From positions 1-64,000 of the forward strand of contig VHBQ01000004.1 of NCBI GenBank assembly GCA_016871855.1: 64,000 bases of DNA. The letters run 5' to 3'. A program made the position numbers and the translations under genes. The notes under the pieces were generated by a model. The model was given only the letters and a program-made list of their open reading frames with translations, was not told the origin of the DNA and did not search any database. Position 1 is the stretch's first letter, and every line of letters starts with the position of its first letter. Shown here piece by piece: positions 56,405 through 57,238 of the stretch. This stretch comes from Gemmatimonadota bacterium. GTDB taxonomy: Bacteria > Gemmatimonadota > Gemmatimonadetes > Gemmatimonadales > Gemmatimonadaceae.

Positions 56405-56513
56405 GGCACCCGATGGCTGAGGGTCGTCACCTCAATCTAAAAGGGGCGCGAACGAAATGCGTCCGGGTCGCCGTCCAGCCCCGCGAAGTTCCAGTTTTCC
56501 CTGACAGCAAAAC

Positions 56514-56528
56514 GGTATATTAAATACC
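56514..56528. promoter_or_regulatory. AT-rich palindrome, candidate operator
   Basis: GGTATATTAAATACC: 5-bp arms GGTAT/ATACC around a 5-base AT core, in an unusually AT-rich patch 37 bases before the ScdA-like gene start. Position and symmetry suggest an operator for a regulator of the nitric-oxide/oxygen genes that follow. An Rrf2/NsrR or CRP/FNR-type factor is a guess; no exact known consensus is matched. Confidence 0.4.
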
Positions 56529-56564
56529 ACTTTATCGGGGCACTCGACCTTCAGGGAGATTCCT

Positions 56565-56762
56565 TTGACCAGCCCGACCGTTCCCGCGCTCACCGCCGAG
56601 ATGACACTCAACGAGATCGCCCTCGCTCAGCCGCGCGCCGTCGAGGTGTTCGCCCGATACCGGCTCGACAGCTGCTGCGGCGGCGCCAAGCCGCTCGCGC
56701 TGGTCTGCGAACGCCACGGCCTCGATCTTGAAGCAGTCCTGCGCGACCTGCGCGCGCTGTAG
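56565..56762 (+). CDS. ScdA/RIC N-terminal (DUF542) domain protein
   Basis: A 65-residue protein starting with TTG, with AGGGAG 6 bases upstream. It consists only of the DUF542 domain: TLNEIALAQPRAVEVFARYR, then LDSCCGGAKPLALVC with the characteristic C-C-G-G. In full-length RIC/ScdA/YtfE proteins this domain precedes a hemerythrin-like di-iron domain and helps repair iron-sulfur clusters after nitric-oxide or oxidative damage. Here the second domain is absent. It is followed 29 bases later by the mini heme-copper-oxidase-like gene, so the two are probably co-transcribed. Confidence 0.82.
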   Translation: MTSPTVPALTAEMTLNEIALAQPRAVEVFARYRLDSCCGGAKPLALVCERHGLDLEAVLRDLRAL

Positions 56763-56791
56763 CCCTTCGCCCTTTCACCTCCTCGCACGCC

Positions 56792-57238
56792 ATGGACTGG
56801 TTTGTCCGCGCCTTCATCAAGAGCGCCCTCGTCTACCTGGGACTCGGCATCTGCTTCGGTCTCTGGATGGGGATTGCACCCACCGCGGTGATCTACCGCC
56901 CGGCGCACGCGCACCTGAACCTGCTGGGCTTCGTCACGATGTTCATCTTCGGGGTCGCCTACCACGTGATCCCGCGTTTCAGTGGACACCCGCTGCACAG
57001 CGTGCGCCTGGCAACGCTGAACTGGTGGGCGTCGAACACCGGGCTCGTGGTGCTCGTCATCGGTTTCATGTTCCTGCCGTGGCGGCCTCAGGCGCGCGGA
57101 GTGGTCGCCGCCGGCGCGGTCATCGCTGCCATTGGGGCGTTGGCGTTCGTCTACAACCTGTGGCGCACGCTGGACGGCTCAGGTCCGAAGCCGCGTCACG
57201 ACAGCGGCATGGGTCGCCGGCTGCCGATGTCCGGCTAG
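56792..57238 (+). CDS. Small heme-copper-oxidase-like membrane protein
   Basis: A 148-residue protein with about four membrane segments (residues 11-30, 42-62, 80-97 and 105-125). The motif RPAHAHLNLLGFVTMFIFGV resembles the low-spin-heme histidine helix of cbb3-type cytochrome-c oxidase or NO reductase subunit I (H-x-x-N), and AYHVIPRFSG supplies another histidine (His58). The full catalytic subunit has twelve segments and a copper site; here only the N-terminal quarter is present. Next to a DUF542 gene it may sense or bind NO or heme. The C-terminus is hydrophilic and basic. Confidence 0.7.
   Translation: MDWFVRAFIKSALVYLGLGICFGLWMGIAPTAVIYRPAHAHLNLLGFVTMFIFGVAYHVIPRFSGHPLHSVRLATLNWWASNTGLVVLVIGFMFLPWRPQARGVVAAGAVIAAIGALAFVYNLWRTLDGSGPKPRHDSGMGRRLPMSG

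Follow-up and report, generated by a model that had tools for sequence, protein, structure and literature searches.

Single-unit homologues of the heme-copper oxidases (HCOH) were reportedly described by Pei, Li, Kinch and Grishin (2014, Protein Sci 23:1220) as proteins of four helices which are encoded by a separate gene, are most similar to oxidase helices 9-12 and are linked to denitrification. Passages in PMC4602095 cite this work for a homotrimer core like that of the oxidases, and passages in PMC11218638 do so in connection with DUF2249 and the superfamily of the oxidases; a class of single-unit proteins was therefore already known. A second described system, that of NnrS (PF05940) and DnrN/YtfE (RIC), combines a membrane protein of the oxidase superfamily with a protein bearing an ScdA_N domain. 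NnrS has 12 helices, and RIC additionally carries a di-iron domain. According to passages in PMC1274295, nnrS and dnrN (RIC) are recurrent targets of NsrR in proteobacteria, where the motif is gATGyAT-N5-ATrCATc.

Here, we analyzed a two-gene unit located in a stretch of 64,000 nucleotides from a bacterium of the phylum Gemmatimonadota; this whole stretch is referred to as the window. The unit comprises the following features:

56497-56533, no strand assigned: conserved upstream footprint TTCCCTGACAG...GGTAT-N5-ATACCACTTT, derived by aligning the window with six close loci in MAFFT
56514-56528, no strand assigned: operator-like dyad GGTATATTAAATACC, an exact match to GGTAT-N5-ATACC
56553-56559, plus strand: AGGGAGA, resembling a ribosome-binding site, ahead of the TTG start (direct reading of the sequence)
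56565-56762, plus strand: gene with TTG start for a stand-alone ScdA_N (DUF542) protein of 65 aa
56673-56678, plus strand: codons of Cys37-Cys38 of the ScdA_N protein, the counterpart of YtfE Cys30-Cys31
56792-57238, plus strand: gene for a single-unit heme-copper-oxidase homologue (HCOH, here called type A) of 148 aa with four predicted transmembrane helices (profiles, AlphaFold2 model and structure alignment)
56906-56914, plus strand: codons of H39-A40-H41, an HxH motif invariant in 39/39 type A and 14/14 type B proteins
56963-56965, plus strand: codon of H58; 32 of the 39 type A proteins have His at this position and seven have Gln

The membrane protein agrees with HCOH in its four helices, its separate gene and its strongest likeness to oxidase helices 9-12, but differs in a recurring ScdA_N or DUF1858 partner, which also occurs fused to it, and in a putative operator shared with nosZ. 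The initial annotation had called this membrane partner uncharacterised, which holds only in part, the class having reportedly been described in 2014. Like NnrS and RIC, the unit combines an oxidase-superfamily membrane protein with an ScdA_N-bearing protein near or under a repressor of the Rrf2 family; unlike them, it consists of one oxidase unit and one domain and is preceded by GGTAT-N5-ATACC. By this analogy, the best reading is that the unit represents a reduced parallel of NnrS and RIC, i.e. an NO-response accessory of denitrification under Rrf2 control. We assign a probability of about 0.6 to its general class of function, a denitrification-linked NO-response cassette; this reading is proposed mainly because of the parallel with NnrS and RIC, a membrane relative of the oxidases next to an ScdA_N protein.

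Pfam recognized ScdA_N (PF04405) in the 65-aa open reading frame with an E-value of 8.1e-17 and 61.1 bits (cut-off 32.5), and no hemerythrin or di-iron domain was matched by Pfam in the same protein, as had been annotated initially for a DUF542 protein of 65 residues. The equivalog models for RIC reached 40.6 and 39.8 bits (cut-offs 204.7 and 254), and the redox-disulfide domain TIGR03980 gave an E-value of 5.2e-7 and 29.6 bits, under its cut-off of 44.95. The start of this gene was set at 56601 by the gene finder used, a rough codon-scored procedure which may drop small genes. In the loci examined, the ScdA_N cluster comprises 11 genes, and every one of them encodes the Cys-Cys pair; a role of the corresponding Cys30-Cys31 pair of YtfE is treated in passages of PMC9052748. 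Two separate hemerythrin-domain genes were found elsewhere in the source genome. Furthermore, Pfam identified hemerythrin genes, i.e. the other half of RIC, near the single-unit gene in loci L137 and L157.

The membrane gene follows the ScdA_N gene on the same strand after a gap of 29 bp. In the initial annotation, its product was taken for the first quarter of a subunit resembling those of oxidases or NO reductases; this could not be upheld, as the gene encodes a complete four-helix protein corresponding to one of the three core repeats of an oxidase, closest to the last. Pfam COX1 was aligned at profile positions 3-143 of 436 with 33.4 bits, just below the cut-off of 34.8, and the ccoN model TIGR00780 at positions 343-395. 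Upon comparison of the single sequence with CcoN (3mk7_A) by phmmer, three successive regions were matched, 56-108, 204-304 and 311-400; the last was the best and, with an i-Evalue of 0.0004, the sole region convincing on its own (63 and 2.3 for the others). A profile of 39 homologues matched the third unit of 9g6b_A with 36.4 bits and a further 15.8 bits at its end, the second unit with 8.9 and the first with 6.3 bits. A truncated or decayed oxidase gene was ruled out: the 39 aligned type A sequences, including the 148-aa protein, are of similar length (140-185 aa), the HxH motif is invariant and the structural model is confident.

The AlphaFold2 model of the 148-aa protein reached a pLDDT of 91.3 and comprises helices at residues 3-28, 30-64, 71-94 and 101-128, a fold which suggests insertion into the membrane. 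Foldseek searches with this model returned cbb3 oxidases at the top (9g83_t, E-value 1.9e-4, TM 0.76). VIA-align superimposed it on the last four helices both of 9g6b_A (residues 303-469; Z 15.5, rmsd 2.4, 136 residues aligned) and of the qNOR 6t6v (Z 14.7, rmsd 2.1, 128 residues aligned). An independent four-helix gene, strongest homology to oxidase helices 9-12 and conserved histidines suited to heme binding place the protein among the single-unit HCOH; with 148 aa and four helices, it lacks the 12-helix core of a catalytic subunit of heme-copper oxidases or NO reductases. The NnrS model PF05940 reached 13.4 bits and remained below its cut-off of 28. According to passages in PMC4602095, YgdD and the MAPEG trimers likewise consist of four helices per protein and adopt a trimer fold resembling the oxidase core, but they match less well than the oxidases do: LTC4 synthase (MAPEG, 3pcv) gave a Z of 10.6, which helical bundles can reach by chance as stated for the alignment tool, at an rmsd of 5.7 over 127 aligned residues.

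Histidines at positions 39, 41 and 58, pointed out in the initial annotation, are present in the 148-aa open reading frame. The HxH motif also occurred in 29/29 distant homologues read; H58, given its replacement by Gln, is not a requirement of the family. In the phmmer alignments, H39 was aligned to H60 and H345 of CcoN, and H41 was aligned to H347 as well as to H207, the latter in the middle match, which is weak. In the cbb3 structure, the low-spin heme is bound by H60 and H347, the active-site heme by H345 and copper by H207. Given these alignments, each interface of a symmetric trimer would bring together one H39 and one H41, and the 148-aa protein is probably a trimer with bis-His heme b. 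Inspection by eye revealed neither an HH pair nor Glu in this protein, hence there is no evident second metal site. As compared to the catalytic subunits CcoN and NorB, it has the fold of one of their three repeats and an HxH motif aligned to heme-ligand positions, but only about one third of their length and no such second site.

The distribution of the family was analyzed in 150 genomes of the phylum. Matches to the membrane protein at E ≤0.001 were obtained in 63 of them, some only to ordinary large oxidases; from these, we picked by eye 43 genes of type A, distributed over 41 genomes, and 33 paralogues of type B; together they occur in 51 genomes. Type B proteins are about 150 aa long, roughly 30% identical and often encoded adjacent to type A. 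The source genome contains type A alone, with no type B seen; it is a draft of 2.99 Mb and 85.6% complete, so that absences in it carry little weight. A scan of named genomes yielded 129 confirmed loci, of which 80 were kept. These belong mostly to Gemmatimonadota and furthermore to Nitrospinota, Nitrospirota, ANME/Methanoperedens-type archaea, Thioalkalivibrio and others. A library of phage families gave no match.

Several larger relatives were observed. An open reading frame of Desulfuromonadales (L132:5425-6405) contains two oxidase-like units in tandem, covering positions 163-434 of the Pfam COX1 profile or about two thirds of an oxidase. Proteins of 413-440 aa encoded at L044:10298-11617, L055:4189-5427 and L067:8638-9936 were grouped with the single-unit family, adjoin genes of the DUF2249 cluster and are possibly three-unit HCOH proteins; the one from L067 had no Pfam or NCBIfam match at the thresholds used. 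Finally, a locus labelled Bacillota (L129:2227-4691) combines a COX1-like protein of 426 aa, a single-unit protein, an ScdA_N open reading frame and DUF2249.

The pairing of ScdA_N with the membrane gene, proposed initially for the window, recurs in Bacteria and Archaea. Within the genomes of the phylum, ScdA_N was found within 10 kb of 14/43 type A and 9/33 type B genes, and the 14 start 176-544 bp away. That ScdA_N is merely a chance neighbour was rejected on this basis, since about 0.007 occurrences would be expected within 600 bp of the 76 genes, a rough estimate assuming a mean genome of 3.6 Mb. Of the 80 named loci, 36 had an ScdA_N or DUF1858 open reading frame near the membrane gene and on its strand according to profile searches; most of these were either no more than about 600 bp away or in the same frame. 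No partner was found in the other 44. Some overlap is inherent in these counts: one profile was built from 11 Gemmatimonadota-type genes, and some of their source genomes recur among the 80 loci (L080, L082); for the other, three of the archaeal loci which it later recovered served as input. All 11 ANME/Methanoperedens-type loci have the partner, confirmed by Pfam as DUF1858 in three. In the nine archaeal loci with room for a whole gene, it comprises 67-73 aa from the first start and ends 8-27 bp before the membrane gene; the CC pair is missing in 10/10 archaeal DUF1858 partners inspected. Four loci (L125, L140, L146, L147) encode a fusion in which DUF1858 follows the membrane unit. Within the partial literature collection searched, we found no earlier description of this pairing or fusion, nor of an operator shared with nosZ.

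The membrane protein co-occurs with denitrification genes. Either nosZ or a nirK-like gene was present in 50/51 genomes with type A or B as compared to 29/99 genomes without (odds ratio 121, 150 genomes); nosZ was counted over the model cut-off and all matches above 140 bits as nirK-like, only 18 of the 150 genomes exceeding the nirK family cut-off. The difference persisted within the family of the source organism (34/35 with the protein, 6/19 without) and elsewhere (16/16 and 23/80), and 13 of the 14 genomes of that family without nosZ and nirK-like gene also lack the membrane protein. The single genome with the membrane protein and neither nosZ nor nirK is G010. As the genomes are related, these counts are not independent events. 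Furthermore, 47 of the 76 type A and B genes are located within 10 kb of nosZ, nirK-like or ScdA_N genes. In L061, L066 and L068, nosZ is followed by the divergent nsrR and then directly by the membrane gene, and in other loci, e.g. L043, L052 and L053, a gene of the single-unit family neighbours a nirK-like gene. A module for the response to NO or low oxygen had been proposed in the initial annotation; its NO part is strengthened by this co-occurrence, by the recurrent pairing and by the dyad shared with nosZ, but its low-oxygen part gained no separate support.

The same neighbourhoods would also suit a protein that passes electrons from the quinol pool on to NosZ and NirK, the copper enzymes of the periplasm, in which case control by NO would reflect shared regulation only: nosZ was found within 10 kb of 9/43 type A genes and a nirK-like gene within 10 kb of 12/43, and hemes placed as in the oxidases would lie nearer the periplasmic face. 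We consider this unlikely, as the ScdA_N/DUF1858 partner has no export signal recognizable by eye and, where fused, follows the C-terminus of the membrane unit, which is predicted from the topology to be cytoplasmic; moreover, phmmer detected no relative of NosZ or NirK in the 118,870 bases that make up the 11 archaeal loci with the pair, although such genes may be encoded in other parts of these genomes.

The GGTAT-N5-ATACC dyad noticed initially upstream of the genes stands as GGTATATTAAATACC without any mismatch. Judged from the 64-kb window alone, it is only suggestive: allowing one mismatch, one match was found as compared to 0.25 expected, and 24 of 100 shuffled sequences contained at least one. 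When the window was aligned with six close loci by MAFFT, the arms proved to be largely kept and the centre variable, with ACCACTTT or GCCACTTT in 7/7; each has a copy with 0-2 mismatches ahead of the operon. A scan for promoters and terminators returned none, and no sigma-70 consensus promoter was found in the upstream footprint. The proteobacterial NsrR motif gATGyAT-N5-ATrCATc, as given in passages of PMC1274295, is not matched by GGTATATTAAATACC.

Three exact GGTAT-N5-ATACC sites occur in the genome of 2.99 Mb, and none in the reversed control. The extended form GTGGTAT-N5-ATACC has two exact sites when both strands are counted, one upstream of the operon (minus-strand reading) and the other in the gap between nsrR and nosZ; the third site of the shorter form lies inside a coding gene resembling exbB/tolQ, named by eye, and looks like a chance occurrence. 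Copies with 0-2 mismatches were present in the nsrR-nosZ gap of 5/5 genus members drawn. Allowing one mismatch, the motif was found 21 times in five genomes of the genus as compared to six for the reversed control; in the source genome alone, it was hardly commoner than the control (four and three). Among the 26 loci L012-L037 from more distant relatives, nine contained a match with at most two mismatches, none of them close upstream of the membrane gene; in L033, a single match with two mismatches lies in the nosZ-nsrR gap. The nsrR-nosZ gaps of G040 and G090 have a different dyad, which was absent near the membrane gene of either genome. Two genomes of another genus contain the dyad CCTCTA-N7-TAGAGG in this gap (L167:654-672, L168:688-706), perhaps the operator of that genus.

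The regulator gene divergent from nosZ encodes an Rrf2 protein (NsrR/RirA-like) with C-x7-C-x5-C, and the adjacent nosZ is of the Sec type (TIGR04246, 932.8 bits, cut-off 625). Three Rrf2 genes of the source genome pass the cut-off, among them this regulator gene. A three-Cys Rrf2 protein together with a dyad common to its own gap and to the operon, the signs of an NsrR regulon, was found within this one genus. Other regulators were seen beside the single-unit gene elsewhere: a Crp/Fnr-type gene is divergent from it at L142:5123-5815 (Pfam), and L147 and L149 contain genes resembling this type by eye.

The regulator could also be of the iron-responsive RirA type; the operon would then serve iron or heme homeostasis, and the link to denitrification would reflect the metal demand of the enzymes. 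RirA was indeed its best NCBIfam equivalog model (135.6 bits, cut-off 193; NsrR 113, cut-off 182), although neither cut-off was passed, and according to the RIC models ScdA_N forms one half of a protein for iron-sulfur repair. This alternative is improbable, since both exact sites precede nosZ and the ScdA_N operon, NosZ being a copper enzyme, and since the occurrence of the membrane protein follows nosZ/nirK.

Possible NO reductases were compared by means of sequence motifs. Contig 46 of the source genome contains a COX1-family gene with GHSSQQ where oxidases have HPxVY. Gln in place of that Tyr marks eNOR according to passages in PMC8756737. Nine of the 21 genomes examined had an eNOR-like gene with the GHSSQQ motif, and one, G115, a cNOR-like gene. 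The HLWVEG of G115 is presumably a cNOR-type motif; the gene (L259, contig 107) belongs to a member of the genus whose sisters have an eNOR-like gene instead. No NOR signature was recognized among the COX1-family matches of the remaining 11 genomes; in G071 and G049 some matches are interrupted at the end of a contig, and G024 has a divergent frame of 582 aa. Both nosZ and a nirK-like gene were found in six of the 11 genomes (G048, G080, G144, G142, G012, G135). No clear nirK was detected in the source genome (best E-value 9.6e-5). On its contig 46, the eNOR-like subunit I (L234 and L007) is accompanied by a probable cupredoxin-type subunit II, judged by eye, and by another Rrf2 gene nearby. 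No match to NnrS was found in five genus members or in any of 14 control genomes, so that this absence carries no weight. Because of the eNOR-like gene, the source organism is unlikely to depend on the membrane unit as its main NO reductase; that the trimer of this unit is a minimal NO reductase in genomes with NirK and NosZ but without recognized NOR, as the 11 genomes might suggest, is improbable, given the missing HH pair and Glu and a source genome with an eNOR-like gene and no clear nirK.

We thus return to an NO-response cassette under Rrf2 control. A site common to nosZ and the operon is observed, as is its retention within the genus; the Rrf2 repressor (NsrR/RirA type) encoded divergently from nosZ would bind the idealised dyad AAGTGGTAT-N5-ATACCACTTT before nosZ and the operon and would release it when NO attacks its putative Fe-S cluster. 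Within the membrane, three copies of the 148-aa protein, each a single unit of the oxidase type, would form a trimer, in which one bis-His heme b is possible per interface, consistent with the alignment of HxH to the CcoN ligands. The ScdA_N protein, with Cys37-Cys38 on the cytoplasmic side, may cooperate with the heme protein in reducing or removing NO or nitrosylated iron, similar to the roles presumed for NnrS and RIC in proteobacteria. We are less sure of this cooperation than of the class of function, although the fusions found elsewhere speak for it. There is only a small chance that the most specific version is correct, namely a threefold membrane cytochrome with three bis-His heme b which, together with ScdA_N/DUF1858, reduces NO or nitrosylated iron in denitrifiers without known NO reductase.

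According to PMC9530729, the phylum Gemmatimonadota is reported to reduce N2O in farm soils. For a small membrane family, the analysis proposes a role that can be tested, together with a partner and a likely regulator. Furthermore, a single-repeat protein with the heme motif of the oxidases would allow a direct study of how respiratory oxidases are built from three repeats.
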